From positions 868,001-932,000 of the forward strand of contig OX387605.1 in the NCBI GenBank assembly GCA_947568835.1: DNA of 64,000 nucleotides. The letters run 5' to 3'. Shown in pieces: positions 25,701 to 64,000 of this stretch. The DNA comes from Protonemura montana (taxonomy: Eukaryota; Arthropoda; Insecta; Plecoptera; Nemouridae). Below the pieces are notes generated by a model. That model searched no databases and was not told where the DNA came from. It was given only the letters and a program-made list of their open reading frames with translations. Made by a program: the position numbers and the translations under genes. Within the stretch, counting starts at the first letter, position 1; each line of letters begins with the position of its first letter.

Positions 25701-27702
25701 CTCCTGTATATCATGCAAGTAGACTCAGCGCTTCACGTGGGTTGAACTTGTCTTTCAAGGGGTGACCAACGCCCCAGGGACAGTTTGAGTGAATGCTCCT
25801 GTATATCATGCAAGTAGACTCAGCGCTTCACGTGGGTTGAACTTGTCTTTCAAGGGGTGACCAACGCCCCACGGACAGTTTGAGTGAATGCTCCTGTATA
25901 TCATGCAAGTAGACTCAGCGCTTCACGTGGGTTGAACTTGTCTTTCAAGGGGTGACCAACGCCCCAGGGACAGTTTGAGTGAATGCTCCTGTATATCATG
26001 CAAGTAGACTCAGCGCTTCACGTGGGTTGAACTTGTCTTTCAAGGGGTGACCAACGCCCCACGGACAGTTTGAGTGAATGCTCCTGTATATCATGCAAGT
26101 AAACTCAGCGCTTCACGTGGGTTGAACTTGTCTTTCAAGGGGTGACCAACGCCCCACGGACAGTTTGAGTGAATGCTCCTGTATATCATGCAAGTAAACT
26201 CAGCGCTTCACGTGGGTTGAACTTGTCTTTCAAGGGGTGACCAACGACCCAGGGACAGTTTGAGTGAATGCTCCTGTATATCATGCAAGTAGACTCAGCG
26301 CTTCACGTGGGTTGAACTTGTCTTTCAAGGGGTGACCAACGACCCGGGGACAGTTTGAGTGAATGCTCCTGTATATCATGCAAGTAGACTCAGCGCTTCA
26401 CGTGGGTTGAACTTGTCTTTCAAGGGGTGACCAACGACCCACGGACAGTTTGAGTGAATGCTCCTGTATATCATGCAAGTAGACTCAGCGCTTCACGTGG
26501 GTTTAACTTGTCTTTCAAGGGGTGACCAACGCCCCACGGACAGTTTGAGTGAATGCTCCTGTATATCATGCAAGTAGACTCAGCGCTTCACGTGGGTTGA
26601 ACTTGTCTTTCAAGGGGTGACCAACGCACCAGGGACAGTTTGAGTGAATGCTCCTGTATATCATGCAAGTAGACTCAGCGCTTCACGTGGGTTGAACTTG
26701 TCTTTCAAGGGGTGACCAACGCCCCAGGGACAGTTTGAGTGAATGCTCCTGTATATCATGCAAGTAGACTCAGCGCTTCACGTGGGTTGAACTTGTCTTT
26801 CAAGGGGTGACCAACGTCCCAGGGACAGTTTGAGTGAATGCTCCTGTATATCATGCAAGTAGACTCAGCGCTTCACGTGGGTTGAACTTGTCTTTCAAGG
26901 GCTGACCAACGCCCCAGGGACAGTTTGAGTGAATGCTTCTGTATATCATGCAAGTAGACTCAGCGCTTCACGTGGGTTGAACTTGTCTTTCAAGGGGTGA
27001 CCAACGCCCCACGGACAGTTTGAGTGAATGCTCCTGTATATCATGCAAGTAGACTCAGCGCTTCACGTGGGTTGAACTTGTCTTTCAAGGGGTGACCAAC
27101 GCCCCACGGACAGTTTGAGTGAATGCTCCTGTATATCATGCAAGTAGACTCAGCGCTTCACGTGAGTTGAACTTGTCTTTCAAGGGGTGACCAACGCCCC
27201 ACGGACAGTTTGAGTGAATGCTCCTGTATATCATGCAAGTAGACTCAGCGCTTCACGTGAGTTGAACTTGTCTTTCAAGGGGTGACCAACAGCCCAGGGA
27301 CAGTTTGAGTGAATGCTCCTGTATATCATGCAAGTAGACTCAGCGCTTCACGTGGGTTGAACTTGTCTTTCAAGGGGTGACCAACGCCCCACGGACAGTT
27401 TGAGTGAATGCTCCTGTATATCATGCAAGTAGACTCAGCGCTTCACGTGGGTTGAACTTGTCTTTCAAGGGGTGACCAACGTCCCAGGGACAGTTTGAGT
27501 GAATGCTCCTGTATATCATGCAAGTAGACTCAGCGCTTCACGTGGGTTGAACTTGTCTTTCAAGGGGTGACCAACGACCCAGGGACAGTTTGAGTGAATG
27601 CTCCTGTATATCATGCAAGTAGACTCAGCGCTTCACGTGGGTTGAACTTGTCTTTCAAGGGGTGACCAACGACCCAGGGACAGTTTGAGTGAATGCTCCT
27701 GT
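22757..27702. repeat. 95-bp satellite, about 52 copies
   Basis: Unit of 95 bases containing CTGTATATCATGCAAGTAG, ACTCAGCGCTTCACGTGG, GTTGAACTTGTC and GGGGTGACCAACG, followed by a short variable block and GGACAGTTTGAGTGAATG. Units are nearly identical; almost all differences fall in the block after CCAACG, where CCCCAC, CCCCAG, TCCCAG, ACCCAG, ACCCGG, ACCCAC and CACCAG alternate. The unit contains the E-box CACGTG. It does not encode protein. Period is constant with almost no indels, which suggests recent homogenisation. Confidence 0.96.
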
Positions 27703-34040: not shown

Positions 34041-34480
34041 TAGTTTGAGCGTTGTATGTAGGTTCTAGGTAGAGAAACAAAGTCAATGTTACAGTCTCTG
34101 CGTGAAAGATGGCCGCCAAATGACTACCTTACCGACAAAAATGCAGAGTACCGGAACATCACGTTAAGTGGAGCCACTGTCGTATGAAATTTAATTTCGA
34201 TATTTCTCGTAGGTTAACCCGCTTTTGTGACTTTTCATGTTTAAAAAATCTCCATTAATGTTAACCTCAACGATTGATAAACACGTAACGATATTAAAAA
34301 GCGAGTTAACCTACGAGAAATATCGAAATTAAATTTCATAAGACAGTGGCTCCGCTTAACGTGATGTTCCAGTACTCTGCATTTTTGTCGGTAAGGTAGT
34401 CATTTGGCGGCCATCTTTCACGCAGAGACTGTAACATTGACGTTGTTTCTCTACCTAGAACCTACACTCAACGGTTTGAG
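34041..34480. mobile_element. Foldback/MITE-like element, copy B
   Basis: Element 34050-34473, CGTTGTATGTAGGTTCTAGG to CCTACACTCAACG, same arms and centre as copy A. GTTTGAG flanks it on both sides (34043-34049, 34474-34480). It lies 150 bp past the end of the ZAD gene. Confidence 0.75.
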
Positions 34481-34894: not shown

Positions 34895-35012
34895 TGTCTG
34901 ATTGATTGATAACTGGGGTTTAATATGGCACTGTTTTGATATCTGGCCATGCGGCACTGGTCTAATGGCGTCGGTGAATGAGTGGATGATGATGATGAAC
35001 CTAACCTAACAT
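34895..35012 (-). mobile_element. 5S-derived SINE, 3' end fragment
   Basis: Contains GGGGTTTAATATGGCACTG, GCGGCACTGGTCTAATGGCG and GTGAATGAGTGGATGATGAT, the distal end of the SINE body. The rest is missing. Confidence 0.65.
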
Positions 35013-37081: not shown

Positions 37082-38430
37082 TGATGAATGTTAAGCAACA
37101 CTGTGCTGGGTCAGATATTGTATGAGTGACCATCATACACATGATCAGTTCTGTTCGGGAGAGAGGTTGGAGGGATGAAAGTTAAGCAACACTGCGCTGG
37201 GTCAGGTATTGGATGGGTGACCATCGTACACATGACCAGTTCTGTTTGGGAGAGAGGTTGGAGGGATGAAAGTTAAGCAACACTGTGCTGGGTCAGGTAG
37301 TGGATGGGTGACCATCATACACATGACCAGTTCTGTTCGGGAGAGAGGTTGGAGGGATGAAAGTTAAGCAACACTGCGCTGGGTCAGGTATTGGATGGGT
37401 GACCATAATACACATGACCAGTTCTGTTCGGGAGAGAGGTTGGAGGGATGAAAGCAACACTGCGCTGGGTCAGGTATTGGATGGGTGACCATCATACACA
37501 TGACCAGTTCTGTTCGGGAGAGAGGTTGGAGGGATGAAAGCAACACTGCGCTGGGTCAGGTATTGGATGGGTGACCATCATACACATGGCCACTTCTGTT
37601 CGGGAGAGAGGTTGGAGGGATGAAAGTTAAGCAACACTGCGCTGGGTCAGGTATCGGATGGGTGACCATCATACACATGACCAGTTCTGTTCGGGAGAGA
37701 GGTTGGAGGGATGAAAGTTAAGCAACACCGCGCTGAGTCAGGTATTGGATGGGTGACCATCATACACATGACCAGTTCTGTTCGGGAGAGAGGTAGGAGG
37801 GATGAAAGTTAAGCAACACTGCGCTGGGTCAGGTATTGGATGGGTGACCATCATACACATGACCAGTTCTGTTCGGGAGAGAGGTTGGAGGGATGAAAGT
37901 TAAGCAACACTGCGCTGAGTCAGGTATTGGATGGGTGACCATCATACACATGACCAGTTCTGTTCGGGAGAGAGGTTGGAGGGATGAAAGTTAAGCAACA
38001 CTGCGCTGAGTCAGGTATTGGATGGGTGACCATCATACACATGACCAGTTCTGTTCGGGAGGGAGGTTGGAGGGATGAAAGTTAAGCAACACTGCGCTGA
38101 GTCAGGTATTGGATAGGTGACCATCATGTACATGACCAGTTCTGTTCGGGAGAGAGGTTGGAGGGATGAAAGTTTGTACAGCAACTTCACTCGCTTTGCT
38201 TATCAACCTCTCGACAGCATGGATTTGTGGAGGAATCCTGTTGTTCGCGTTGTACCGTCCTTCGGAAGGGACGTTAAGCCGGTGGTCCCCTTGATCTTCG
38301 ACAGGAGTAGGCTTCGTACCGGCACCAGGCTTACCTTCCTCCCTTCTAGGCTAGGTTAAGTTCATCCGCGAATTCACCGACGCCATTATACCAGTGCCGC
38401 AGGGCCCGTCGTCAAAACAATGCGTCGTTA
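37082..38430 (+). mobile_element. 5S-derived SINE, copy 2, with about 12 heads
   Basis: About 12 tandem 91-bp heads (some lacking the GTTAAG hexamer), then one 36-bp module, then the body with CCTTCGGAAGGGACGTTAAG and the end CGACGCCATTATACCAGTGC. Plus orientation. No 15-bp expansion at this locus. Confidence 0.85.
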
Positions 38431-38737
38431 AACACCACATATCAACCGTAGCATTATTAAAATAAAAATGTTTTGTAATAAAAGAACACTAATGAGATTA
38501 ATGATTTCTATATCAAGTTTGATAATTGCCCTATGATCTGAAATCATTGGTTCTCTTCTAATAAGCCACAGCCTACTAAAAGTTGGTCGGTCTGCAGTGG
38601 AAAGTCGTTATACATTTGTCCTCATTAGTTACCTACTAACAGCTGTCAGTTGAGCTATAGGTGCTGATTTACTACCTGCTAAGCTGTCTCTAGCTTTAGT
38701 TGACCTGATAACGCGTTACTTTAATCTTGTCAAGTCT

Positions 38738-41551: not shown

Positions 41552-42052
41552 TGGTGGTCACCCATTCAATACCTGACCTAGCGCAGTGTTGCTTAACTTT
41601 CATCCCTCTAACCTCTCTCCCGAACAGAACTGGTCATGTGTATGATGGTCACCCATCCAATATCTGACCCAGCGCAGTGTTGCTTAACTTTCATCCCTCC
41701 AACCTCTCTCCCGAACAGAACTGGTCATGTGTATTGGATGGTCACCCATTCAATACCTGACCCAGCGCAGTGTTGCTTAACTTTCATCCCTCAAACCTCT
41801 CTCCCGAACAGAACTGGTCATGTGTATGATGGTCACCCATCCAATACCTGACCCAGCGCAGTGTTGCTTAACTTTCATCCCTCCAACCTCTCTCCCGAAC
41901 AGAACTGGTCATGTGTATTGGATGGTCACCCATTCAATACCTGACCCAGCGCAGTGTTGCTTAACTTTCATCCCTCCAACCTCTCTCCCGTACAGAACTG
42001 GTCATGTTTATGATGGTCACCCATCCAATACCTGACCCAGCGCAGTATTTGT
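41552..42052 (-). repeat. 91-bp array of 5S-derived SINE heads abutting the aminopeptidase gene
   Basis: About 5.5 minus-orientation heads; two units carry an added TTGGA before TGGTCACCC. The array ends only about 10-15 bases before the start codon at 42063, so the 5' leader or promoter of the gene must lie in it or upstream of it. Confidence 0.85.
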
Positions 42053-42062
42053 TAGCTACGCT

Positions 42063-45000
42063 ATGTTGCATCCGAAGCTTGTTGTAATGTTTCTAGTGCT
42101 ACTGTTTGCGACTGCGCAATGCGCAGACTCGACAGCCAATCAACGTGCAACGTGCACCAATCCGACGCCATCTCAAGTCGACACTAGCGCTAGGCTCGCA
42201 GCTCTGCGCGTGCGCATGGAAACCAACGGCTGGGATGCGTTCATTGTCACTTCTTCTAATGAACATCAGGTATATATAGGACCATATATAGGACCATCTA
42301 TAGGACCAGGTATAGGACCAGGTATAGGACCATATATAGGACCAGGTCCTGGTATATTAGCAGATACATGACCAGATAGGATCAGCTAGGTAGGTTTGGC
42401 TATCAAATTTCGATAAGCACTCAACTTCAGGGCAGCCAGCAACTTCAGGGTGGCCCTCAACATTAAAATAGCTTATTTCTTTTGAGCAGGCCAAACGTTA
42501 AGGACTCTAAACAAAAAAGACCCCGAAATTTTGACCCACGAACTTGAAAGTTCTCAGCTTTTCACCATCGTTATCGAAGGTTCACATATTTAAGCTGCCC
42601 CGAAATTTGCAACCTAGGTTCCCGAGCATTGTTTCTCCAGGACGAGCATTGTATTTTATTTTATTTACTGTCCAGTACATTGTGATCTGTAGCTGTCTAA
42701 CATCACATAGATGTCTCACTAAATAATCTTTATTATAAAAATCATCTAAATTATAAAATTCTTCTTGAAGTAGGAAGATCTTGAGGTTTGTCTTGAATGC
42801 AACTTCGGCTTGCAATGCATTTCAGTTCTTGTGTTGAGATTATTGCAACATTGAGCTGGTACTGAGCCTATGTGACGTCACACATCTGCAGTTTTCTAGC
42901 TCCTCTTGTTTGTCGTGACTGGCAGTGAGTTGTCAATATTGTCTCTGACAAACAATACAATGCTGGATGTGCAAACTGGGTAACTAACCTCAGTAACTAA
43001 CCTCAAACTAGGGGGAGTATATACCCGAGCATGACATGCGACGGGAATACATCACCGGGTTCACGGGCAGCGCTGGTGATGCTGTTATTACAAACATGAC
43101 GGCCGTGCTGTGGACTGACAGTCGCTACTACCTGCAGGCTGAAGACCAATTGGACTGCAACTGGGAGATTGTCAAGACCGGCGAGCCTGAGGTACAAAAG
43201 CCACGATGATGATTTGATTGATTTTTGGGGTTTAGCATAGCACTGTTTTGACATCTGGTTATGCGGCACTGGTCTAATGGCGTCAGTGAATGAGTGGATG
43301 ATGATGAACCTAACCTAGCCTAGAAGGGAGGAGGGGAAACCCGGTGCCGGCACGTAGCCTACTCCTGTCGAAGACCAAGGGGACCACCGGCTTAACGTCC
43401 CTTCCGAAGGACGGTACAACGCGAACAACAGGATTCCTCCACAAATCCATGCTGTCGAGAGGTTGATAAGCAAGGCGAGTGAAGTTGCTGTCGAGAGGTT
43501 GATAAGCAAGGCGAGTGAAGTTGCTGTCGAGAGGTTGATAAGCAAGGCGAGTGAAGTTGGTGTCGAGAGGTTGATAAGCAAGGCGAGTGAAGTTGGTGTC
43601 GAGAGGTTGATAAGCAAGGCGAGTGAAGTTGGTGTCGAGAGGTTGATAAGCAAGGCGAGTGAAGTTGGTGTCGAGAGGTTGATAAGCAAGGCGAGTGAAG
43701 TTGCTGTCGAGAGGTTGCTAAGCAAGGCAAGTGAAGTTGCTGTCGAGAGGTTGATAAGCAAGGCAAGTGAAGTTGCTGTCGAGAGGTTGATAAGCAAGGC
43801 GAGTGAAGTTGCTGTCGAGAGGTTGATAAGCAAGGCGAGTGAAGTTGCTGTCGAGAGGTTGATAAGCAAGGCGACTGAAGTTGCTGTCGAGAGGTTGATA
43901 AGCAAGGCAAGTGAAGTTGCTGTCGAGAGGTTGACAAGCAAGACGAGTGAAGTTGCTGTCGAGAGGTTGATAAGCAAGGCAAGTGAAGTTGCTGTCGAGA
44001 GGTTGACAAGCAAGACGAGTGAAGTTGTTGTCGAGAGGTTGATAAGCAAGGCAAGTGAAGTTGCTGTCGAGAGGTTGATAAGCAAGGCGAGTGAAGTTGC
44101 TGTCGAGAGGTTGATAAGCAAGGCGAGTGAAGTTGCTGTCGAGAGGTTGATAAGCAAGGCGACTGAAGTTGCTGTCGAGAGGTTGATAAGCAAGGCAAGT
44201 GAAGTTGCTGTCGAGAGGTTGATAAGCAAGGCGAGTGAAGTTGGTGTCGAGAGGTTGATAAGCAAGACGAGTGAAGTTGCTGTCGAGAGGTTGATAAGCA
44301 AGGCAAGTGAAGTTGCTGTCGAGAGGTTGACAAGCAAGACGAGTGAAGTTGCTGTCGAGAGGTTGACAAGCAAGGCGAGTGAAGTTGCTGTCGAGAGGTT
44401 GACAAGCAAGACGAGTGAAGTTGTTGTCCTAATATAGTTCGAAGCATTAAGACAATGATATGTACTTTGAGATGAAGGAAGGAAACTCCTATTAAAGTTA
44501 TGCCAGATCTGTTGGAAGTGCCAAATGTGTACCAAACAATTATGTTGTTTGTGTTTGTTTTTATTTTTCTTATAAAAAAAATAATATTCCTAGATATATC
44601 TTAGACAAAACATAAAGTGTAGAAGACCAGGTGCATGATTGCAACACTTGAAATTGCTTGAAATTACAAGACATTTGCAAGAAATTGTTATAAGTGCAAA
44701 ATGGGCGTCCTCCATTATCAACAATGTTTTAAGATATTTGATAGATTTAATGTCAATGTAACGAGTGTAGATGCGAATGAATTTAAAATAATGGGCATCG
44801 AGTGGACGAAACAATTGTAATGTTATGTTCTTCACTTATCTAATGTGTAAAATACTGACTGAATAACTAATAAATCAATATTATTATTATTATTCTGATG
44901 CTGTTTGTTTCCTGTAGGCGCTGACCATAGAGAAGTGGCTGGTCGCAAAGTTGGCCGCTGGGAGCGTCGTAGCAGCTGACGACAAGATTCTGACTTTCCT

Positions 45001-48000
45001 CGAGTGGAAGACTTTTAGCACAAGCCTAGGTACAAACACAACAACAAGCTTGGGTTCATGCCAACCTGATAAAAGTTGAAAGTAACCCAAAATATATTGA
45101 TTTGAACTTTGGTTGATTAATATTTATTGTTTTTGATTCAATAATTTACTTTTACTGAAATTATTTAATGTTTTAACTAAAAAAAAAAAAACATTATTTA
45201 GTTGGAAAGGAAGTTAGACTGGAAAAATGTGCAACCGAACCGGGATACAAACCCCGGACCTCCCAATTGCCGGTCGGGTGCTTTACCAACTGAGCTATCT
45301 GGACACACATGTTCCAGTTTTTGCGGGGGTGGGATAAGGGATCCCTTCGAGGGGGGAGAGGCCGAGGTGACTCATATGGATGAGTTCATCAATGGCCACA
45401 GGACAGAATGTTCGGTCACTATTCCTCAAATCCCGGATATCTCGAAAGATATACGGTTGTCTGCAGTGTTTTTTGGTTTTCTGGCATTTCCACTCGGGAG
45501 CTTAAACCAGCAAGCGGTGGATGGGAGGGAGCTGAAACCAGCAAGCGGCGGATGGGAGGGAAGCTGAAACCAGCAAGCGGTGGATGGGAGGGAAGCTGAA
45601 ACCAGCAAGCGGTGGATGGGAGGGAAGCTGAAACCAGCAAGCGGTGGATGGGAGGGAAGCTGAAACCAGCAAGCGGTGGATGGGAGGGGAGTTGAAACCA
45701 GCAAGCGGTGGATGGGAGGGAAGCTGAAACCAGCAAGCGGTGGATGGGAGGGGAGTTGAAACCAGCAAGCGGTGGATGGGAGGGAAGCTGAAACCAGCAA
45801 GCGGTGGATGGGAGGGAAGCTGAAACCAGCAAGCGGTGGATGGGAGGGAGCTGAAACCAGCAAGCGGTGGATGGGAGGGAAGTTGAAACCAGCAAGCGGT
45901 GGATGGGAGGGAAGCTGAAACCAGCAAGCGGTGGATGGGAGGGAAGCTAGACTGGAAAAATGCGCAACCGAACCAAGATACGAACCCAGGACCTCCCAAT
46001 TTTAGTTGCTTTTAAATCGGATAGCTAACAGTAGCATCTTGGTGTCATGTTTTGTAGGTTGGTATGAGCAGCCCAGAAAGTAGCTAACTTTAATTAATTC
46101 CAGTTTATGTGTGTGTATTATTTTCCCGCCTAACAACGCTTCGTGTTTTCTCTTGACGGCTAGTGGCTGCTGGTCTCACGCTGAGTGCATCAACAACGAA
46201 CCCTGTCGACGAGATCTGGACCGAGGGTCGACCCCCGTACCCCACCGAGGCACCCATCGTCCTCGATACGCTCTACGCCGGTGAGATTACCACAGATATG
46301 CTTGGCGTATGAAACAAATGTGCCATAAGCACGATAAGAAACTAACTTCCATGCGGTACAATGTGAGGCATATTTCTGGGCTCCTGATCACTGAATTGGT
46401 AGGCCGCAAGATCAGGAGTCTTTTGATGAAAGCATACAAGTTAGGATGAAATCTTCTTTAAATAGCAAACGCTTGCAATGCGCGGGGTATTTTATTATTA
46501 TCAACACTATAACCGTCTCAAAAATTGATGCCCAAACGGGGACTCGAATCCCGATCTGTCACGGGTGTTGCTCTGAACCATTGAGCTACTTGGACACTGG
46601 CTTTTTGAGATGATTCTAGAGTGTTTTGTGAGAATGACAGTTCTCCAAGGAGTAGAACCAAGAGGCTGTGAATACTCATCAAATACACTAAAATCGTCTC
46701 AAAAAGCCAGTGTCCAAGTAGCTCAATTGGTTAGAGCAACAGCCGCGACAGGTGGAGATCGGGGTTCGAGCCCGCGTTTAGGCATCAATTTTTGAGACGG
46801 TTATAGTGTTGTTAATAATAAAAAACCATAGAAATATCTAGAAAACAATCCGACCCCGAAGATGATGACCTAGTTGCCATGCACCATGTCTAATCTTGTT
46901 GCCGCGAGTGTTACAGGAATGACGTGGCAAAACAAGATGGCGTCTGTGCGTTCCTCGATGTCCACGCTGGGGTGCGATGCGTTCGTCGTCGCCGCTCTGG
47001 ACGAGATCGCTTGGTTTCTGAATCTACGTGGGTCTGACATCCCCTTCTCACCTTTCTTCCGCGGCTACCTGATCATCGAGGCAACCACTGCTGCCATCTA
47101 CCTTCCAGTGGAGAAACAAACCGACGTCGTGCGCACGCATCTCAACGCAGGCGCCACCGGGTTACTGGCCGTTGCGTAGGTGGTCAAGTTTAGGTCTTAT
47201 TAGGATGAAATCTGTATTTAAATTGCAAACGCTTGCAATGCGCGGGGTATTTTATTATTAACAACACTATAACCGTCTCAAAAATTGATGCCCAAACGGG
47301 GGCTCGAACCCCGATCTCCATCTGTCGCTGGTGTTGCTCTAACCAATTGAGCTACTTGGACCCTGATCTCCACCTGTCACGGGTGTTGCTCTGACCAATT
47401 GAGCTACTTGGACCCCGATCTCCACCTGTCGCAGGTGTTGCTCTAACCAATTGAGCTACTTGGACCCCGATCTCAACCTGTCGCGGGTGTTGCTCTAACC
47501 AATTGAGCTACTTGGACCCCGATCTCCACCTGTCACGGGTGTTGCTCTGACCAATTGAGCTACTTGGACCCCGATCTCCACCTGTCGCAGGTGTTGCTCT
47601 AACCAATTGAGCTACTTGGACCCCGATCTCCACCTGTCGCGGGTGTTGCTCTAACCAATTGAGCTACTTGGACACTGGCTTTTTGAGATGATTTTAGTGT
47701 ATTTGATGAGAATGACAGATCTCCAAGGAGTAGAACCAAGAGGCTGTGAATACTCACAGTTCGAGTCCGTGTTTGGGCATCAATTTATAAGACGGTTATA
47801 GTGTTGTTAATAATAAAAAAAAGTGTCTATTACTTTGAAGCTAAGTATCTATAGACTCTGGAATGCATACTCTAACCAAGTTTCCTGGCGACAGGGTGAA
47901 GAACTACGAGCAGTTCTGGGTTGACCTGCCGGGTCTGGCCACGCGAGTCTCCAAAGTTCTGCTTCCTGACAAATTTAGCTACGCGGCCGGAATCAGTCAA

Positions 48001-51000
48001 CGAGTCTACATGGCCGTGAGTTCTGGGCGAGGGCCAAGAACGAGGCCCACCTTTTAAGAAAAACTATTTCAACTGGGTTTTGAATGCTAAGTAAAGGGCT
48101 ACTAAATTTCCCGACGTTTCGCAACATATACTAGTTACTTCTTCAGAGGTTTGAGCAGTCCTGACAATTTTCCGATAACAAAAGAACCACATAAAATTAT
48201 AACAATCACCTAGTTCAAGCTTCCTAAATGCATCAAAACAAAATAATCAGGGTCAATAACTTAAAAACTAATGTATTGTGTATTTTCTAAAATAAGATCT
48301 TGAACTTGGCATTCAAAACCCAGTTGAAATAGTTTTTGTTAAAACTTGTGCTAAGTTTACATCAAGTAGACATGATTCTAGAAACCATTATAGAGGCCCA
48401 CGTTGCTAGGGAAAGAATTAATCTTTTGACAACTTCCGTACACTCTAATATACTTGCTCATTCGTTACTTTAACCTGATTCCATTCGACAACACAACATT
48501 CTAAAATAATTTCTTGTAATATTTGCTTGGTTCATTTGTCAAAACGGTCCCGAAAATGCATTTCAGCCAACGTGTTGGTTAGTGCATTGGGCTCTGACGA
48601 GCTCTGGTTGGTTGTTTCAGTTCGGCGAGCCCAAGGTGCTGGTCGGGGTGTCTCCTGTCTTGACGCTACGGGACACCAAGAACGACGTGGAGGCTCAGGG
48701 GATGATCAACGCCCACGTGCGCGATGCAGTGGCACTTTGTCGCTTCCTAGAGAAGCTGGAGACAGGGGTGAGTTGGAGCAGCCTACAAACAAAACCAGCT
48801 GCCCGACCACAAACAATATTACTCCACCCATGTTATATGAGATCAACTGACTGGATCCCATGTTCTATCCAGGTTATTTGAGATCAGCTGGCTGGATCCT
48901 ATGTTCTATCCAGGTTATTTGAGATCAGCTGGCTGGATCCTATACTCTATCCAGGTTATTTGAGATCAGCTGGCAGGATCCTATGCTCTATCCATGTTAT
49001 TTGAGATCAGCTGTCTGGATCCTATGTTCTATCCAGGTTATTTGAGATCAGCTGTCTGGATCCTATGTTCTATCCAGGTTATTTGAGATCAGCTGGCTGG
49101 ATCCTATGTTCTATCCAGGTTATTTGAGATCAGCTGTCTGGATCCTATGTTCTATCCAGGTTATTTGAGATCAGCTGTCTGGATCCTATGTTCTATCCAG
49201 GTTATTTGAGATCAGCTGGCTGGATCCTATGTTCTATCCAGGTTATTTGATATCAGCTTGCAGGATCCTATGCTCTATCCAGGTTACTTGAGATCAGCTG
49301 TCTGGATCCTATGTTCTATCCAGGTTATTGGAGATCAGCTGGCTGGATCCTATGCTCTATCCAGGTTATTTGAGATCAGCTGGCTGGATCCTATGCTCTT
49401 TCCAGGTTATTTGAGATCAGCTGGCTGGATCCTATGCTCTATTTATGTTATTTGAGATCAGCTGGCTGGATCCTATGCTCTATCTAGGTTATTTGAGATC
49501 AGCTGGCTGGATCCGATGCTCTATCCAGGTTATTTGAGATCAGCTGGCTGGATCCTATGCTCTATCCAGGTTATTTGAGATCAGCTGGCTGGATCCAATG
49601 CTCTATTTATGTTATTTGAGATCAGCTGGCTGGATCCTATGCTCTATCTAGGTTATTAGAGATCAGCTGGCTGGATCCTATGCTCTATCCAGGTTATTTG
49701 AGATCAGCTGGCTGGATCCTATGTTCTATCCAGGTTATTTGATATCAGCTTGCAGGATCCTATGCTCTATCCAGGTTACTTGAGATCAGCTGTCTGGATC
49801 CTATGTTCTATCCAGGTTATTGGAGATCAGCTGGCTGGATCCTATGCTCTATCCAGGTTATTTGAGATCAGCTGGCTGGATCCTATGCTCTTTCCAGGTT
49901 ATTTGAGATCAGCTGGCTGGATCCTATGCTCTATTTATGTTATTTGAGATCAGCTGGCTGGATCCTATGCTCTATCTAGGTTATTTGAGATCAGCTGGCT
50001 GGATCCGATGCTCTATCCAGGTTATTTGAGATCAGCTGGCTGGATCCTATGCTCTATCCAGGTTATTTGAGATCAGCTGGCTGGATCCAATGCTCTATTT
50101 ATGTTATTTGAGATCAGCTGGCTGGATCCTATGCTCTATCTAGGTTATTAGAGATCAGCTGGCTGGATCCTATGCTCTATCCAGGTTATTAGAGATCAGC
50201 TGGCTGGATCCTATGCTCTATCCAGGTTATTTGAGATCAGCTGGATGGATCCTATGCTCTATCCAGGTTATTTGAGATCAACTGGCTGGATCCTATGTTC
50301 TCTCCATGTTATTTGAGATCAGCTGGCTGGATCCTATGTTCTATCCAGATTATTCAGTTATACAGTTGATGTTTTCGCCGCCAGGTGGCAGCCGGTGAAT
50401 CTTGGGATGAGCTGACGGCTTCTTCTACGTTGAACTCGCTACGTGCTGAGATGGATCTCTCCATGGGTCCCAGCTTCGAGACCATCTCAGCGTTCGGTGC
50501 CAACTCTGCTCTGCCTCACTACTCACCCACCAATGCTACCAACCTAGAAATAAACACTAGCGCTATGTACATGTTGGACTCTGGCGGGCAGTACCTTGGT
50601 AAGTGCCATGCACGTGCTGTCAGTACCTTGGTAAGTGCTATTTAAGCAGCACCCTGGATCTTGTATTCAGTTGCCCTGCTGCCCTTGCTATGGTCACATT
50701 TTGATATCAGTAATGTCATTTGTTACCAATGCAATGTCAAGGAACCTACAGCGATTTGCAATCAAATTGAAAACATCAATAATTTGCAAATTCCTTTGTG
50801 CTAGAGCCGTAACAAACCAGATCTGTATTTGATCTGGGCGATTAGGTTCAGATCGTGGATCCGTATCTAGGATTCTGTGCCCGATATTTCATCAGATTTC
50901 TGTCCATCTTGTCGCCAGGCTTGATTTTATTCCAGTTTCTTGGTTTAATCTGGTTTAATCTGGTTTAATCTGGTTTAATCTGGTTTGCTTCCAGATGGCA

Positions 51001-54000
51001 CTACCGACGTGACTCGCTCCCTGCATTTCGGGACGCCGACCGAGTTCCAGCGCGAGATCTTCACGAGGCTTCTGATTGGTTGCGTGCGTCTGGCGAGCAC
51101 CCGATTTCCCGCGGGACGAACACGTGCTGACCTTGAGATAGTGGTGCGGTCCCCACTCTTCGGCCTCGGACTGGACTTCGGTCACGGGACCACGCACGGG
51201 ATCGGGGCATTCGGGGGGGTCCATGAAGGTACAACTACTGATGTTAAATAGCCTGGATAGAGCATAGGATCCAGCCAGCTGATCTCAAATAACCTGGATA
51301 GAACATAGGATCCAGCCAGCTGATCTCAAATAACCTGGATAGAACTTAGGATCCAGCCAAATGATCTCAAATAACCTGGATAGAGCATAGGATCCAGCCA
51401 GCTGATCTCAAATAACCTGGATAGAACATAGGATCCAGCCAACTGATCTCAAATAACCTGGATAGAACATAGGATCCAGCCATATGGTAATAATTGAATC
51501 CAGGAATTCTATTGTTGGGAACAGGTAGGAGTCCCTATGTCCCTATGTCCTTATGTCCCTACGTCCCTATGGCCTACCATCCTTGCCATGCCAACTTGTG
51601 TTTTATACAACTTTACAAACTATTTTACTTTCATATCATTTCAATGAGCTTTGGTTCAAGTCGAGACTTTCACTACAAGTTAAAGTCCTACAAATGTTAA
51701 CAACATTTTTTTTTATTTTGCAGCTTTCGACTCGAAATACCACAAGAATTTCTTCGGGTCTCAAGGTAACACCGCAATCACAGCAGCTGATATATATATG
51801 CTATGCCGAAATATCTCGCTTGGCAATGTGAGAGGTCGTAACTTGCCGGGATATAATTTAGATTCTACTTCGAAAGAAAGGAATATAATAATGTGCTCAC
51901 CAAATCCGTATTACACAATCAGGACCGTTTAACCCTGGAGCTGTTTTCTCTCTGATACACTTCCTGACCACATGAATAAAGCTGGGACATCTGGATATTG
52001 CTGACGCTTATCGTGCAAATTCCTACCCGCACGCGACAGCTCACCTAAGCACCAACTGCAATCATGCAGTTCACAACAATATATATAAAAAAAAACACTT
52101 ATTATTAGAACAAGTTTTGAAAGATTACAACTGTTAACAACTGAGTTTGTCAGGCAAAAGGAAAAACAACAGATTTCTCCGGCGTCCTTGATCTTGAGCC
52201 TGTACTTCATCAAGCTTGAAAGCTTGTTTATTTGTAGAATTCAGATACTAGTGTCTGTTGTCTCGTGTCAGGAAACCAATATAAGAACCTGTCATTTGAT
52301 GAACGTTGAAGAACTTGAAAGTAGCAGCTCAAGTGTCAGTTTGCGATTGTGTTTGAAATATCTTCCCTCGATTGTTTTGCAGAACCTGGCTACTATCTGG
52401 CGGGAGAATATGGAATGAGACTGGAAAACATTGTCACCGTCGTTGAGGCAGATTTACCGGTAAGTTTAACTTAACTTCAATAAGTGACGGCAGTGTAAAG
52501 GAAAATAAACCCTATGTACATAAACATAACACTAGAGGTAAAGAAATTAGTCATATTAATAAGTTATTTAGACCCCGACTGTCAGGAAAATCACCAGAAA
52601 ATGCTGCTATTGCATTGTATAACTTCCTTCCGAATCAGATTAAATTTATCACAGACTTCCAAATTCAACTCAAGATTAAAAGAACACTTTTTCAAATTAT
52701 CACCGAACTCCATCAGAGAATTCACAGTCAAGCAATCACTCATTTATTTATTAGTTTGTCTCGCCTAGCAACAGTAACTAGGCTTGGTAATAATTGTAAT
52801 AAGTATTTGATAAATGATATTAAATTACCTAACTGTTAAATAATGTATTTTTTAAAAACAAATAAACAAACAAACAAACAAACAAACAAACTGCCAGCTG
52901 GATACAAGAACAGGTACAAGCACTAGCACAAGGACAAGTACAAGCACAAACTTGTTTAAAGTAAAAACGTTACCAAACGCACCGCGTTGCTATGCCAAAC
53001 GCATGTCAAATAGGGTTGCCATAATAAAAATTTCGGGAGGCGGGACAAATTTCAACAAACAAACAGTAGTTAGGCCGGAGGCTCGGGGTACAGTCAAAGC
53101 TCCCCAAAAAATAAGGGTGTGGATGTGAGAACAGGATTTGAGGGCCATTTTCAGCAATTTTACGTGTTTTAAATATATTTATGTTTTTCTTGGCACTTGA
53201 AATCCTGAGTCATATTTATGTATCAACTTTCAATTTATCAGCAGGAAATGTTGGTATAATTCGTATAACTATTTAAAAAAAAATCTAAATTTCATCACAG
53301 ATTTTTTTAAAACTTTTCTATTGGTGACAGTTCACGTACAATCATAATGTCATTGACGCAATTAGAGGAACAATTAGCTATTTATAAGGAACAATGCAAA
53401 TCAGGGGCGGCTCGTGAGGGAGGGCTGCGGGGCGGCTGCCCTCCCTAGCATTTTCGACAGAATAAAAGTATAATTGTTATTATTATTATAATTATTGTTC
53501 TACGCTTGTTCTGTGTTTTAAAATGGGTGCTACTTTCGAAATGCGAAAAAACGCGATATTTGCGTCGCGCCGACAGCACGAGCTGCCGAGTGCAACGAGA
53601 CGATCCAGTAGGCGGTTGTCCGCTGCCTATAGAGTCTGAACGCCGCCGCTTGCTCTCTTTGGGGCAGCGAGCGCTGCCGTCCTCCCTGCTCAGCTAGGAG
53701 TGCGTGGAAATGGCCTTGAACGTGTGTCGCCCGTCGTCGCTCGCAAGCCCAGCGAGGGCAGCAGAAAACCCGCCCTCGGCCAGTCTCGGCCAGCCTCGGC
53801 CAGCCTCGGCCAGCCGCCGGGCTGAGCTAGCAGCGAGAGCGAGTGAGACAGAACGATGCATACGATCGCACATATTTTCCACGGCAATTAATAGTTTCAA
53901 AATAATAGTACTACCGTTTACTAGCCTGAATTTCTGTCCCACCTAGTTTCACATACTGCGTACGTTTTTGTCCAATGAAAATTAATCTAATGTGTGACTT

Positions 54001-57000
54001 GACAGCTAGAATTCAATGATAACTTTTTTTTAAATATCACATGTTGGATTTTAATGTTACAATATTGAAATCCTACTACAGTGTTCATTACTTATGGTGC
54101 TAGTGGTGAGGGGGGGGGGGGGAGAAATTTTACTGCCGCCCCTCCAAGAAAAACAGTCACGAGCCGCCACTGATGCAAATGCAATGTTGCGATTTTTTTA
54201 AAGAAAATTACGATCGAGCGGGACATTTGTCCAGCTCCGCGGGACGCGGGACTTTTGAGTGAAGAGCGGGACGTATGGCAACCCTAATGTCAAACGCAGT
54301 AATTACGGGTATACTTGTTGCTGGTCCATGATATCAATGTTAGAATTGCATTATGCACAGTCACCAAGATGTACTCGGGTTGCATTGCAAGTTTCCTAGA
54401 ACCAGCGCAGCCTGTTCCTTTAAAAGCAATCGGTGAACATTTTCAGAATTTGCTGTGATTATTAAACTATTGCTATAAAGAAGTGACGTTTGTTTTTTTG
54501 TGGGTGCTGTTTGACAGGCAAGTTCTGTTGGGTGCTTGGTGCTTGTGTAGGAATGTATTGCCCACTGTCTCTGGTTTCCCGTTGGGTTTCAACTCGGCCG
54601 TGCTGTCAGTTGGTAAAACAATCCACACAGTCGGCCAGCTGGACCCCCGAGCACCGGGGAGCAAATGGGCCGTGCTGTCAGTTAGTAAAACAATCCACAC
54701 AATCAGCCAGCTGGACCCCCGAGCACCGGGGAGCAAATGGGCCGTGCTGTCAGTTGGTAAAACAATCCACACAATCAGCCAGCTGGACTCCCGAGCACCG
54801 GGGAGCAAATGGGCCGTGCTGTCAGTTGGTAAAACAATCCACACAATCAGCCAGCTGGACTCCCGAGCACCGGGGAGCAAATGGGCCGTGCTGTCAGTTA
54901 GTAAAACAATCCACACAATCAGCCAGCTGGACTCCCGAGCACCGGGGAGCAAATGGGCCGTGCAATAGAAACAAAAATATCTGACCGAATTTAATTCTTG
55001 AATACTATAAACTAGGTCCATGACAGAACAAACAATATTTTTTCCTTATTATTTTTTGCACTGTTTGCGCTCTGCAAAATAAAAGAGATATTTTCAGTGC
55101 CATGTTGCGTTTGTCAAACGTTTGGGCTTAACTTTAACGACCCGTTAAAGAACGAAAAATATAATAATTCTACTGAATTCGGATTTATTCTGTCCTAGTC
55201 CTATTTTAGGATGCAATTATTTTACTGTAATATCTTTTATTCTATATCTTATTGTGTTTTATTATTCACTTAAATTGTGATCATTTTGTTGCTAAACTCG
55301 GCTGATATTGTGATCATTTATTGAAGTTCTGGTGACATTTTTTACTATTTTTCTTGTTGCCATACGTCAAACTTCATTCTTCTGAATTCAATTGAAGAAA
55401 AAAATAAATGAACGAATAACTTGACGACACTTGCGTTGTTCTTGCAGTTGAGTGGGAACACGACGTTCCTTGAGTTCCACACCGTCACTCTTGTACCGTA
55501 TGACCGGAAACTCATCGTGACGGAAATGCTCAGCACTGACGAGGTATTTTATTGATCGATTTATTTGTGGTGTTTAACATAGCACTGTTTTGACATCTGG
55601 CCATGCGGCACTGGTCTAATGGCGTCGGTGAATGAGTGGATGATGATGAACCTAACCTAGTCTAGAAGAGAGGAGGGGAAACCAGGTGCCGGCACGTAGC
55701 CTACTCCTGTCGAAGACCAAGGGGACCACCGGCTTAACGTCCCTTCCGAAGGACGGTACAACGTGAACAACAGGATTCCTCCACAAATCCATGCTGTCGA
55801 GAGGTTGATAAGCAAGGCGAGTGAAGTTGCTGTCGAGAGGTTGATAAGCAAGGCGAGTGAAGTTGCTGTACTAACTTTCATCCCTCCAACATCTCTCCCG
55901 AACAGAACTGGTCATGTGTATGATGGTCACCCATCCAATACCTGACTTAGCGCAGTGTTGCTTAACTTTCATCCCTCCAACCTCTCTCCCGAACAGAACT
56001 GGTCATGTGTATGATGGTCACCCATCCAATACCTGACTCAGCGCAGTGTTGCTTAACTTTCATCCCTCCAACCTCTCTACCGAACAGAACTGGTCATGTG
56101 TATGATGGTCACCCATCCAATACCTGACCCAGCGCAGTGTTGCTGAACTTTCATCCCTCCAACCTCTCTCCCGAACAGAACTGGTCATGTGTATGATGGT
56201 CACCCATCCAATACCTGACCCAGCGCAGTGTTGCTTAACTCTCATCCCTCCAACCTCTCTCCCGAACAGTACTGGTCATGTGTATGATGATCACCCATCC
56301 AATACCTGACCCAGCGCAGTGTTGCTTAACTTTCATCCCTCCCGCCTCTCTCCCGAACAGAACTGGTCATGTGTATGATAGTCACCCATCCAATACCTGA
56401 CCCAGCGCAGTGTTGCTGAACTTTCATCCCTCCAACCTCTCTCCCGAACAGAACTGGTCATGTGTATGATGGTCACCCATCCAATACCTGACCCAGCGCA
56501 GTGTTGCTTAACTCTCATCCCTCCAACCTCTCTCCCGAACAGTACTGGTCATGTGTATGATGATCACCCATCCAATACCTGACCCAGCGCAGTGTTGCTT
56601 AACTTTCATCCCTCCAGCCTCTCTCCCGAACAGAACTGGTCATGTGTATGATGGTCACCCATCCAATACCTGAACCAGCGCAGTGTTGCTTAACTTTCAT
56701 CCCTCCAACCTCTCTCCTGAAGAGAACTGGTCATGTGTATGATGGTCATGTGTATGATGGTCATGTGTAAGGTGGTCATGTGTATGATGGTCATGTGTAT
56801 GATGATCATGTGTATGATGGTCATGTGTATGATGGTCATGTGTATGATGGTCATGTGTATGATGGTCATGTGTATGATGGTCATGTGTATGATGGTCATG
56901 TGTATGATGGTCATGTGTATGATGGTCACCCATGCAATACAGTGACTCAGCTCTGTGTTGCTTAACTTCTATGGGTTGTGTTGCAGATTGCTTGGTTAGA

Positions 57001-57391
57001 TGCATACTATGAAAGGATTTGGGTGACAGTTGGTGCAGAGTTGCTCAGACTTGGACACAGTTCTACTCGCGATTGGCTCTGGGAACAAACGCGGCCGATC
57101 GGCTCCGGGGTAGGTGTGGTCTTGGCACAGGGATGGTTGGTAACCCTGGCAATTGTGTTCGGGAAACATTTCACCTGCTAATTGGTTGCCATAGCGACAG
57201 TGCTAGGTTGGATGTTGTTACTTTTGTTGTCTTTTCAGTTGAATGACTTTCTGTCGAATCGGTCGGAATCGCAGAGAAACTCGATAAGCGTTGAAATCCC
57301 TGCGAGTATCAGTGCAGTGAGGCAACAAGTGAATCAAACCGCTAACCCACAGAACATAAACCAAGCAAAGATAGATTTTACATTAGATTGA
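42063..57391 (+). CDS. XPNPEP2-like: Secreted Xaa-Pro aminopeptidase (14 exons)
   Basis: M24-family metallopeptidase that removes an N-terminal residue preceding proline. Exons: 42063-42269, 43012-43191, 44918-45029, 46164-46280, 46917-47175, 47895-48015, 48621-48767, 50385-50598, 50995-51228, 51724-51765, 52383-52459, 55448-55543, 56987-57109, 57239-57391; all GT/AG, frame kept, 693 codons (human XPNPEP2 674). The start encodes a signal peptide (VVMFLVLLFATA, then AQC). N-terminal creatinase-like domains contain YITGFTGSAGDAV and WTDSRYYLQAEDQLDCNW. Metal ligands are all present: Asp446 in LDSGGQY, Asp457 in DGTTD, His520 in HGTTHGIG, Glu545 in EPGYY, Glu559 in RLEN; His426 lies in LPHYSPT. 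Exon 10 is short, so the segment between VHE and EPGYY is several residues shorter than in human. The C-terminus is hydrophilic without a GPI signal, unlike mammalian XPNPEP2, so a soluble secreted enzyme is likely. Confidence 0.96.
42270..42362. repeat. 10-bp TATAGGACCA microsatellite
   Basis: About nine imperfect copies of TATAGGACCA or GGTATAGGACCA begin at the exon 1 donor of the aminopeptidase gene and include the first intron bases. Confidence 0.8.
43205..43444 (-). mobile_element. 5S-derived SINE body, copy 3
   Basis: Minus orientation: tail (GATTTTTGGGGTTTAGCATA), AATGGCGTCAGTGAATGAG, then body GGCTTAACGTCCCTTCCGAA. It runs straight into a large 36-bp array instead of the heads. Lies in intron 2 of the aminopeptidase gene, 14 bases after exon 2. 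Confidence 0.75.
43445..44434. repeat. 36-bp minisatellite, about 27 copies
   Basis: Unit GTCGAGAGGTTGATAAGC plus AAGGCGAGTGAAGTTGCT, which occurs once in SINE copies 1 and 2 and twice in copy 4. Because 36 is a multiple of 3, long open frames (324 to 406 codons) appear on both strands; they are array artefacts. Lies in intron 2 of the aminopeptidase gene. Confidence 0.93.
44435..44917. other. End of aminopeptidase intron 2
   Basis: AT-rich. It contains a LINE-like 3' end near 44860-44895 (AATAACTAATAAATC followed by ATT repeats), about 20 bases before exon 3. No coding remnant recognised. Confidence 0.4.
45200..45320 (-). mobile_element. Second tRNA-type SINE family, head
   Basis: On the minus strand: GTCCAGATAGCTCAGTTGGT, AAAGCACCCGACCGGCAATT and GGGGTTTGTATCCCGGTTCGG, a recognisable tRNA cloverleaf with box A and box B, followed by a (C)ATTTTTCCAGTCTAAC tail. 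The anticodon loop lacks U33, so it is a SINE rather than a tRNA gene. Intron 3 of the aminopeptidase gene. Confidence 0.65.
45497..46000. repeat. 32-bp minisatellite between two SINE pieces, about 14 copies
   Basis: Unit GCTGAAACCAGCAAGCGGTG plus GATGGGAGGGAA. The array runs into a second SINE piece GAAGCTAGACTGGAAAAATG at 45944-46000, which resembles GAAGTTAGACTGGAAAAATG at the first head. The last bases of the unit overlap the start of that piece. Non-coding. Confidence 0.85.
46438..46832. mobile_element. tRNA-type SINE, two copies in opposite orientation
   Basis: Left copy (minus) from TTTAAATAGCAAACGCTTGC through GGACTCGAATCCCGATCTG to AGCTACTTGGACACTGGC; right copy (plus) GTGTCCAAGTAGCTCAATTG, GGGGTTCGAGCCC, TTTGAGACGGTTATAGTG. 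Each has a box B-like GGTTCGAGCC or its inverse. A shared spacer (GAATGACAGTTCTCCAAGG) separates them. Intron 4 of the aminopeptidase gene, ending 85 bases before exon 5. Confidence 0.75.
47200..47825 (-). mobile_element. tRNA-type SINE with seven 52-bp head units
   Basis: Left end TTTAAATTGCAAACGCTTGC, then GGGGGCTCGAACCCCGATCT (box B inverse) and seven tandem inverse heads GTTGCTCTAACCAATTGAGC, TACTTGGACCCCGATCTCC, then GACACTGGCTTTTTGAGATG and a second left-end piece. Only the first unit has a box B. Intron 5 of the aminopeptidase gene, starting 25 bases after exon 5. Confidence 0.8.
48055..48395. mobile_element. Penelope-like repeat with hammerhead-like core
   Basis: Copy in intron 6 of the aminopeptidase gene. 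On the minus strand (about 48155-48110) it reads CTGAAGA, then GTAAC-TAGTATAT-GTTGC (five-base stem with loop), then GAAAC and GTC. These are the C-U-G-A-N-G-A and G-A-A-A core boxes of a hammerhead ribozyme around a stem II. Other copies of the family keep the hairpin and GAAAC but have TTGATAAA in place of CTGAAGA. Confidence 0.55.
48845..50360. repeat. 41-bp minisatellite, about 36 copies
   Basis: Unit GGTTATTTGAGATCAGCTGG plus CTGGATCCTATGCTCTATCCA. It fills intron 7 of the aminopeptidase gene almost from donor to acceptor. A block of roughly 450 bases from about 49248 recurs at an offset of 492 (12 units), a higher-order duplication. The same unit occurs inverted at 51248-51485 and again at 63645-64000. 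Confidence 0.93.
50938..50987. repeat. 10-bp TCTGGTTTAA repeat at a splice acceptor
   Basis: Five copies of TTAATCTGGT type just before the exon 9 acceptor of the aminopeptidase gene, replacing the usual polypyrimidine tract. Confidence 0.8.
51248..51485. repeat. 41-bp minisatellite, inverted copies
   Basis: About six copies of CCTGGATAGAGCATAGGATC plus CAGCCAGCTGATCTCAAATAA, the inverse of the intron 7 unit, in intron 9 of the same gene. Confidence 0.92.
52460..53002. other. Aminopeptidase intron 11, first part
   Basis: AT-rich with a LINE-like tail: an AT-rich stretch followed by (AAAC)n at 52855-52890. A preceding plus-strand frame (52600-52830) contains YNFLPNQIKF, typical of LINE C-termini, but is short and degraded. 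Confidence 0.4.
53003..54294. mobile_element. Outer hAT-like element with 8-bp duplication
   Basis: Element 53011-54286 begins TAGGGTTGCCATA and ends TATGGCAACCCTA (inverse). ATGTCAAA flanks it on both sides (53003-53010, 54287-54294). The terminal TAGGGTTGCCA and 8-bp duplication are typical of hAT transposons. It is interrupted by a second element at 53402-54172. No transposase frame remains. Confidence 0.8.
53394..54180. mobile_element. Inner hAT-like element nested in the outer one
   Basis: Element 53402-54172 begins CAGGGGCGGCTCGTGA and ends CACGAGCCGCCACTG. ATGCAAAT is present on both sides (53394-53401, 54173-54180). It has a GC-rich interior, a TCGGCCAGCC repeat near 53778-53815 and a run of 13 G near 54110. 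Non-autonomous; it inserted after the outer element. Confidence 0.85.
54590..54965. repeat. 72-bp minisatellite, about five copies
   Basis: Unit of 72 bases with GTGCTGTCAGTTGGTAAAAC, AATCCACACAATCAGCCAGC and CCCGAGCACCGGGGAGC. In frame lengths keep several ORFs open, but the product is unrelated to any family. Intron 11 of the aminopeptidase gene. Confidence 0.88.
55552..56940 (-). mobile_element. 5S-derived SINE, copy 4, showing all modules
   Basis: In plus-strand order: tail (TTGTGGTGTTTAACATAGC), body (GGCTTAACGTCCCTTCCGAA), two 36-bp modules at 55795-55868, about nine 91-bp heads at 55871-56725, then the 15-bp array at 56728-56928. This single locus shows that the arrays seen separately elsewhere belong to one element. 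Intron 12 of the aminopeptidase gene; it begins 8 bases after exon 12. Confidence 0.85.
56728..56928. repeat. 15-bp minisatellite, about 13 copies
   Basis: Unit GTGTATGATGGTCAT, the inverse of the 14509-15350 unit, at the outer end of SINE copy 4. Non-coding. Confidence 0.9.
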
Positions 57392-57394
57392 AAT

Positions 57395-57745
57395 CTTATT
57401 TAAATTGCAAACGCTTGCAATGCGCAGGGTATTTTATTATTAACAACACTAAAATCGTCTCAAATAGCCAGTGTCCAAGTAGCTCAATTGGTTAGAGCAA
57501 CACCCGCGACAGGTGGAGATCGGGGTCCTAGTAGCTTAATTGGTTAGAGCAACACCCGCGACAGACGGAGATCGGGGTCCAAGTAGCTCAATTGGTTAGA
57601 GCAACACCCGCGACGGGTGGAGATCGGGATCCAAGTAGCTCAATTGGTTAGAGCAACACCTGCGACAGGTGGAGATCGGGGTTCGATTCCCCGTTTGGGC
57701 AACAATTTTTGAGACGGTTTAAATGTTGTTAATAATAAAATAGCT
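57395..57745 (+). mobile_element. tRNA-type SINE with four head units and intact box B
   Basis: TTTAAATTGCAAACGCTTGC end, then CTAAAATCGTCTCAAATAGC, four 52-bp heads, the last continuing as GGTGGAGATCGGGGTTCGAT and TCCCCGTTTGGGCA. The last head folds as a tRNA: D arm GCTC/GAGC, T arm CGGGG-TTCGATT-CCCCG, acceptor stem closed by wobble pairs. The anticodon loop (CGCGACA or TGCGACA) lacks U33, so it is SINE, not tRNA gene. It starts 5 bases after the aminopeptidase stop, so it is in its 3' UTR. Confidence 0.8.
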
Positions 57746-63644: not shown

Positions 63645-64000
63645 GAACTGACTAGATCCTATGCTCTATCCAAGTTATTTGAGATCAGCTGACTGGATCC
63701 TATGCTCTATCCAGGTTATTTGAGATCAGCTGGCTGGATCCTATGCTCTATCCAGGTTACTTGAGATTAGCTGGCTGGATCCTATGCTCTATCCAGGTTA
63801 TTTGAGATCAGCTGGCTGGATCCTATGCTCTATCCAGGTTACTTGAGATTAGCTGGCTGGATCCTATGCTCTATCCAGGTTATTTGAGATCAGCTGGCTG
63901 GATCCTATGCTCTATCCAGGTTATTTGAGATCAGCTGGCTGGATCCTATGCTCTATCCAGGTTACTTGAGATTAGCTGGCTGGATCCTATGCTCTATCCA
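63645..64000. repeat. 41-bp minisatellite, third locus, cut by the window edge
   Basis: About nine copies of the unit found in introns 7 and 9 of the aminopeptidase gene (GGTTATTTGAGATCAGCTGG, CTGGATCCTATGCTCTATCC), with an alternating TACTTGAGATTAG variant. It continues beyond the window. Confidence 0.92.

Follow-up and report, generated by a model that had tools for sequence, protein, structure and literature searches.

SINE-derived satellites (sSat) have been described in squamates, in which parts of a SINE, shorter than the SINE itself, lie in arrays bordered by SINE ends (PMC10702118). According to that account, these satellites derive from Squam SINEs with tRNA-related heads and have units of about 70-290 nt, and the longer loci clearly prefer subtelomeres while the SINE itself is randomly spread; unequal recombination was proposed. 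The origin of tandem repeats inside mobile elements is also addressed by the Haber and Louis model which, as presented in a review (PMC6947457), has minisatellites born where short direct repeats enclose a segment of an Alu, B1 or LTR element. In this model, repeats of 5-10 bp flank the future unit, and growth proceeds by slippage, unequal crossing-over or conversion. SINEs with a 5S-derived head have been described in Lepidoptera, where HaSE3 (PMC3272025) and PxSE4 and PxSE5 (PMC8010984) carry boxes A, IE and C in the head and have TSDs; the length of PxSE4 and PxSE5 is 389 bp.

The stretch of DNA analysed here (the window, 64,000 nucleotides from the stonefly Protonemura montana) contains copies of a SINE with a 5S-like head in which three different segments are found as tandem arrays. 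Minisatellites cluster near chromosome ends, but since no two of them have the same sequence, it is difficult to test if they originate at the ends or are only retained there. The same SINE at many places provides a sequence that is nearly constant while its position varies, which allows interior and end copies to be compared directly, and one insertion described below shows both states. A variable tandem segment is also known from SVA, a composite non-autonomous retroelement that moves with its internal VNTR.

Results

Structure of the SINE copies in the window

The end-to-end order of tail, body, 36-bp units, 91-bp units and 15-bp array that the initial annotation had described at 55552-56940 was reproduced by TRF and BLAST, which place this focal copy on the minus strand (Table 1). 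Its A/T-rich tail, as judged by eye, extends on towards 55546. The 5' 5S part is absent from the focal copy, and a TSD was looked for in it and none was found. The two exon pieces that flank the copy, when joined, match Pfam PF16188 with an E of 2.9e-22, and they match the C-terminal region of Xaa-Pro aminopeptidases (PDB 4s2r and 3ctz). By eye, the non-element bases of the intron between them amount to a few at the 5' side and about 17 at the 3' side. This may be a short intron that was invaded by the SINE, or an intron that was created by it.

The 15-bp, head and 36-bp expansions at the other loci of the window were found by TRF and BLAST as they had been described. TRF reported 56.3 units in the 15-bp array at 14510-15353, 27.2 units in the 36-bp array at 43450-44428, and 12.1, 7.4 and 5.4 units in the head arrays at 37083-38174, 18205-18879 and 41555-42046, respectively. 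These arrays bear out the proposal that at least three internal segments of the element, of 91, 36 and 15 bp, expand separately. The unit is a part of the SINE and the arrays adjoin the rest of the SINE, as in a SINE-derived satellite. The annotation had held that arrays unrelated to the SINE body would speak against such a link; of the six array loci of the window, two (18205-18879 and 41555-42046) have such arrays and the other four do not, and the two exceptions look like detached SINE pieces. The genome copies discussed below were found through the body, so that detached arrays of this kind are uncounted outside the window.

Two further observations were made in the window. At 18160-18886, inspection by eye showed that the head array precedes the first 46 bases of the SINE on the minus strand, which is a permuted order. 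The unit of a 12-bp array at 3613-4122 (TGCGCTGGGTCC, 42 copies) agrees at all 12 bases with positions 19-30 of the head, and no further SINE sequence was found adjoining this array by BLAST or in the sequence.

Table 1. Features of the window and members of the seven-copy insertion
Feature	Position or loci	Strand	Basis
SINE body and 3' end, focal copy; served as genome query	55552-55791	-	BLAST; sequence
Two 36-bp units (TRF 2.2 copies), focal copy	55792-55869	-	TRF, BLAST
91-bp units x 9.6 (5S nt 49-92 + 47 bp), focal copy	55872-56748	-	TRF, BLAST, 5S alignment
15-bp units x 13.4, within outermost head, focal copy	56728-56928	-	TRF
5' remnant of outermost, divergent 5S-like head; 5S before nt 48 absent	56929-56968	-	sequence, alignment
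GT..AG intron of Xaa-Pro aminopeptidase-like gene, almost all SINE	55544-56986	+	splice sites by eye
Exon pieces flanking the SINE-filled intron	55451-55543 and 56987-57106	+	Pfam, PDB matches
SINE copy: 56 x 15 bp, 3.6 heads, one 36-mer, body	14502-15907	+	TRF, BLAST
SINE copy: 12 heads, one 36-mer, body (86%)	37083-38448	+	TRF, BLAST
SINE copy: body and 27 x 36 bp, without heads	43216-44428	-	TRF, BLAST
Detached array: 7.4 heads, then the SINE's 5' 46 bases, without body	18160-18886	-	TRF, BLAST; junction by eye
Detached array: 5.4 heads, without body	41552-42057	-	TRF, BLAST
3' part of SINE body alone	34899-35008	-	BLAST
Unrelated tRNA-like element, 6 tandem 52-bp head units	11769-12101	+	TRF, Rfam, BLAST
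tRNA-like element, 7 units	47289-47673	-	TRF, Rfam, BLAST
tRNA-like element, 4 units	57473-57701	+	TRF, Rfam, BLAST
Seven-copy insertion, members	L063, L066, L072, L073, L074, L075, L077		TSD, flanks, junctions

Identity of the element and its short direct repeats

When the head was aligned to the 5S gene of the same genome (L009), the best match lay at nt 49-92 and had a score of 51, which was reached by none of 2,000 dinucleotide shuffles. The top score among the shuffles was 28, and a chance resemblance is thereby ruled out. The comparison supports the earlier claim that the copies belong to a single SINE3-type family whose head resembles 5S. Only half of the 91-bp "head" is 5S, since its other 47 bp gave no 5S alignment. 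The preceding 5S part is present once, ahead of the array, in 17 of the 33 copies examined, and in these the alignment spans nt 14-17 to 91-92 with an identity of up to 87%. An Rfam cmscan of the window, which holds only half of the 5S, did not list a 5S family at E<=1; the evidence for the relation to 5S is therefore the pairwise alignment together with the complete copies elsewhere. Boxes A, IE and C of the 5S control region presumably have their positions within this head.

The single-unit form is represented by the interior copy L061, which is 447 bp long. It consists of a 92-bp 5S-like front, the first 16 bp of which barely align to 5S, followed by 47 bp, a 19-bp linker that overlaps the end of the 91-bp repeat, one 36-mer, the body and a short A/T tail; SINE tails are short A/T repeats. 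TSDs of at least 7 bases were found in 7 of 14 complete copies compared with 1.1% of 182 mismatched pairs. In a larger set, TSDs were found in 17 of 20 copies of subfamily B, 6 of 12 of subfamily A (both defined below) and 1 of 3 unclassified copies, where the control value of 5.0% of 1,190 pairs is inflated by a shared insertion and 6 of the 17 B copies represent one insertion. The B-type TSDs are 11-14 bp long in 16 of 20. The 5S-like head together with the TSDs confirms that the element is a 5S-derived SINE of the SINE3 type.

LTR elements that bear 5S sequence (Cassandra, Helenus and Ajax) have terminal direct repeats and short TSDs. An element of this kind is ruled out here by single-unit copies that have one 5S-like head at the 5' end and none at the 3' end, and also by the longer TSDs of the B-type copies.

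Each of the three expanded segments is bounded in the unexpanded copy L061 by a 6-bp direct repeat at the exact spacing of the unit. AAGTTA occurs at 49 and 140 (91-bp spacing), ACAGCA at 148 and 184 (36-bp spacing), and TGACCA at 88 and 103 (15-bp spacing). The SINE core has 11 direct-repeat pairs of 6 or more compared with 7.2 expected in shuffles, and only three match the expanded units, which means that most of the repeats are unused.

Unit number, chromosome position and subfamily

The genome searches scored the best 40 candidates of thousands (47 for the 5S search), and of the roughly 3,000 candidate SINE copies in the assembly 97 distinct ones were read. For the position statistics, 12 copies were dropped (L002-L008, the window and L019) because they came from a query that included heads and are hence biased to multi-head copies. 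The seven copies of one insertion were merged to one and 6 headless copies were left out, which gives n=73. Several heads were found in 42 of 53 copies within 5 Mb of a contig end and in none of the 20 copies farther in. By distance, multi-head copies made up 17/17 at 0-1 Mb, 12/14 at 1-2 Mb, 5/10 at 2-3 Mb, 8/12 at 3-5 Mb and 0/20 beyond 5 Mb, and the Spearman correlation with distance to the contig end was -0.72. Head counts were made on hits of at least 60 bp or at least 44 bp depending on the tally, so that L067 has 4 or 5 heads, and they are lower bounds where the retrieved sequence stops inside a copy. The 6 copies with 15-bp runs and the 4 with multiple 36-mers in the 97-copy table are all found within 1 Mb; two further partial arrays lie at 1.04 and 1.08 Mb. 

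Searches with the body alone were also compared. With the body of the window copy as query, none of the best 40 of thousands of matches is farther than 3.9 Mb from a contig end and 33 are within 2 Mb, while with the body of an interior-type copy 2 of the best 40 of thousands lie within 2 Mb, 8 within 5 Mb and 32 beyond 5 Mb. The arrays crowd near chromosome ends and the plain SINEs do not, which is a further property of SINE-derived satellites. Flank GC rises slightly towards the ends (rho -0.39, p 0.0014), as biased conversion would produce. All distances are measured to assembly ends, since of the four contig ends sampled one has a TTTGG-type telomere-like repeat (C1), two are not telomere-like and one is unreadable. 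TTAGG gave 13,014 overlapping matches, which like the 5S sequence points to an arthropod, and interstitial TTAGG clusters lie deep in C1 (e.g. C1:11637666 and C1:16524876), the end of which is TTTGG-type.

Two subfamilies, A (end type) and B (interior type), differ at nine diagnostic sites. Of the 35 A copies in the count, none is farther than 4.6 Mb from an end and 33 are multi-head. B copies are multi-head in 2 of 10 cases within 5 Mb and 0 of 16 beyond (p 0.14), with several at 1.6-4.5 Mb still single-head, and unclassified copies in 7 of 8 within 5 Mb and 0 of 4 beyond (p 0.01). Because A is both near the ends and multi-head and the contrast within B is weak, position is partly confounded with subfamily, and the two are not cleanly separable by these counts. 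The arrays could be inherited at insertion, if a multi-head subfamily A arose once, transposes in multi-head (perhaps dimeric) form and preferentially inserts or survives near the ends. The near-end location of the best matches to the A body and the high proportion of multi-head A copies agree with this, the junctions show the A copies to be separate insertions, and ten A copies, which make up 10 of 18 listed arrays with two or three heads, carry exactly two, so that A may have moved as a dimer. However, no obvious positional head haplotype is common to these two-head copies, a single insertion varies in unit number between copies whose flanks are identical, and head variants are partly array-specific. 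The same end bias is also seen in an unrelated tRNA-like element and in non-SINE DNA, and we regard inheritance from one multi-head ancestor as unlikely.

One insertion with different unit numbers

Seven loci on C2, C4, C11 (twice), C12, C14 and C15, located 0.33-1.95 Mb from the ends, have both flanks and the TSD in common, with a single base differing in one flank of L075. They represent one insertion within a block that is duplicated on six chromosomes. The number of heads is 3 on C2, 1 on C4, 5 and 7 on C11, 6 on C12, 6 on C14 and 4 on C15, and these unit numbers may be affected by assembly error. The bodies are identical over 240 bases in six of the seven copies, and the seventh differs at 3 sites. 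L072, L073 and L074, which have 6, 5 and 7 heads, are 100% identical along 1,773 bp upstream of the element, and their 3' flanks differ by 0-1 of 120 bp. The subtelomeric block itself, which is up to 100% identical over 1.8 kb on six chromosomes, reflects recent exchange or duplication between chromosome ends.

The occurrence of one insertion at seven end positions is what would be expected if arrays spread mainly by segmental duplication of subtelomeric blocks, in which case the apparent independent expansions would be few events that were copied. Junctions were compared in 76 copies with a 3' flank and 90 with a 5' flank, the latter including small fetched pieces. Only 21 pairs share a junction, on both sides, and all of them fall in this one seven-member group; with no other shared junction among these copies, segmental duplication can hardly be the main route.

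The single-head member, L075, has the head haplotype 27A 39A, with 52T readable beside a small insertion, and the full haplotype 27A 39A 52T is carried by 15 of 29 single-head copies. Both its head and its 36-mer, which carries CATTCGCCTCGC, are of the interior type. In L063, L066, L072, L073 and L074, most heads are of the end type and the 36-mer, which carries CACTCGCCTTGC, adjoins an unchanged body, and L077 combines end-type heads with the 36-mer of L075. The end-type base of the 36-mer is also present in some single-head B copies (e.g. L058, L081 and L059) and is not diagnostic alone, so that the case for conversion rests mainly on the heads. A second mosaic, L067, has its own TSD and the diagnostic sites AAABBBBBB, and at 3.9-4.1 Mb L065 and L089 have arrays of 5 and 3 heads although their bodies (ABBBABBBB) are not of the A type. 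The idea that every array is an in-place expansion of the copy's own head was dropped, because the seven-copy insertion and L067 have B bodies with A-type heads.

The arrays in the seven-copy insertion look as though they were imported from end copies by ectopic conversion. The simplest history would be that of a single-unit insertion that was later partly overwritten by end-type arrays, with units changing faster than point mutation. Alternatively, L075 may have lost its array by conversion, which would need an interior-type donor.

Head variation within and between arrays

The variation among 210 internal heads from 35 arrays was analyzed, including those of the window and of the L002-L008 and L019 loci found by the head-containing query. 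The nearest head was located in the same array for 31.7% of heads compared with 3.2% when shuffled (maximum 8.0%), and 17 of 71 recurrent head variants were confined to one array compared with 1.0 expected. Head variants are shared locally in this way, which speaks for growth within arrays. Mean head divergence was 3.5% within arrays and 4.2% between arrays; since the former is barely below the latter, exchange between arrays or common descent matters too. Higher-order repeats are visible as periodic variant orders in L007, L047 and L019, and L006 has seven identical variant heads in succession.

Other repeats of the end regions

The tRNA-like element was searched with an end-type and an interior-type query. 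With the former, the best 40 matches listed all lie within 4.25 Mb of the ends and at least 30 of the 40 are tandem, a tally that is a lower bound and in which the window's own 4-unit copy is counted as 1. With the latter, 26 of the best 40 listed lie beyond 4.25 Mb and none of the 40 is tandem, including the 14 within 4.25 Mb of the ends. No 6-bp seed repeat was seen by eye in the 52-bp unit. The copy at 57440-57745 has, by eye, inverted-repeat-like ends (TTATTAACAACACTAAAA ... TTAAATGTTGTTAATAA), so that the element may be a tRNA-bearing MITE and not a SINE.

Non-SINE minisatellites cover 17, 19, 14, 6 and 1% at 0-1, 1-2, 2-3, 3-5 and more than 5 Mb, respectively, in 58 loci that were picked by a SINE hit except for the window and four interior slices. 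This tally leaves out four members of the duplicated block, and within it L019 overlaps the window and L053 overlaps L049.

Additional repeats were observed in these regions. A 41-bp minisatellite unit was found by TRF at three places in the window (48828-50354, 51238-51482 and 63648-64000), and a 95-bp unit with 52 copies at 22761-27702 is another expanded repeat of the same end region. Inverted repeats at 22053-22178 and 34186-34337, whose Rfam miRNA or small-RNA family matches are well below the cut-offs, are perhaps MITE-like. At the start of contig C11 (C11:70-105743), 5S genes lie in +,-,+ orientation, three per roughly 9.5 kb.

The initial annotation had proposed that expansion is perhaps driven by replication slippage or R-loops at a Pol III promoter, and our data do not support this proposal. 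The 91-bp unit, which we take to contain the 5S control region, and the tandem heads of the tRNA-like element would be compatible with slippage caused inside the element by Pol III transcription or R-loops. However, interior copies that bear the same head remain single, without exception in the 20 beyond 5 Mb, the 36-bp unit is not included in the part derived from 5S, and the end regions also show expansion of the tRNA-like element and of non-SINE minisatellites, whose bias to the ends is equal. Single interior copies possess the 5S-like head just as arrays do, so that a Pol III mechanism is not needed, and we consider it very unlikely.

Discussion

We consider it likely that the SINE expanded after it had inserted and in a manner that depends on position, with short direct repeats as seeds, unequal exchange within arrays and ectopic conversion between chromosome ends. 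In this model, the 5S-derived SINE would insert as a single-unit element of about 450 bp, and the chromosome-end regions, within about 5 Mb of the contig ends, would act as a hyper-recombining compartment. The direct repeats AAGTTA, ACAGCA and TGACCA would seed the first duplications in these regions, probably through slippage as the first step. Slippage or unequal exchange would subsequently lengthen, shorten and homogenise the resulting arrays, and ectopic gene conversion would carry them from one SINE copy to another across chromosomes. From the association of unit number with position, we infer that position is a cause of expansion, with meiotic recombination as its probable engine. The surroundings, and not the element itself, seem to drive the growth of the repeats, and tandem arrays inside a SINE need not be a property of the SINE.

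More tentatively, the outer few Mb of all chromosomes might form one exchange compartment in which dispersed repeats evolve in concert and apart from the interior, and in which newly inserted single-unit SINEs are converted to arrays. We are rather doubtful of this wider view. If it holds, the end-specific subfamilies of the 5S SINE (A) and of the tRNA-like element would be products of ectopic conversion and not of separate transposition bursts.

In its 5S-derived head and its TSDs, the element is similar to HaSE3, PxSE4 and PxSE5; its length is 447 bp and that of the latter two 389 bp. Tandem expansion is not reported for HaSE3 (PMC3272025) or for PxSE4 and PxSE5 (PMC8010984), the main texts on which do not contain the word "tandem". 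In the literature searched, mostly without subscription journals, no 5S SINE with tandem units and no arthropod case was found. What is new here is that expansion goes with chromosome position.

SVA is similar in being a non-autonomous retroelement with a variable tandem segment, and it differs in that the young interior form of the element described here is single-unit. As in the minisatellites of Haber and Louis, short direct repeats, here of 6 bp, flank the unit in the unexpanded SINE. In contrast to those cases, one SINE family repeats the same experiment at many chromosome positions. The nearest precedent is the squamate sSat (PMC10702118), which likewise consists of arrays of SINE parts near chromosome ends that are bordered by SINE. 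Unlike the squamate satellites as described there, the arrays reported here derive from a 5S-headed SINE of an arthropod and comprise three units, including those of 36 and 15 bp, in one family. They also differ from them in showing a gradient with distance, one insertion with 1-7 units, and conversion-like mosaics.
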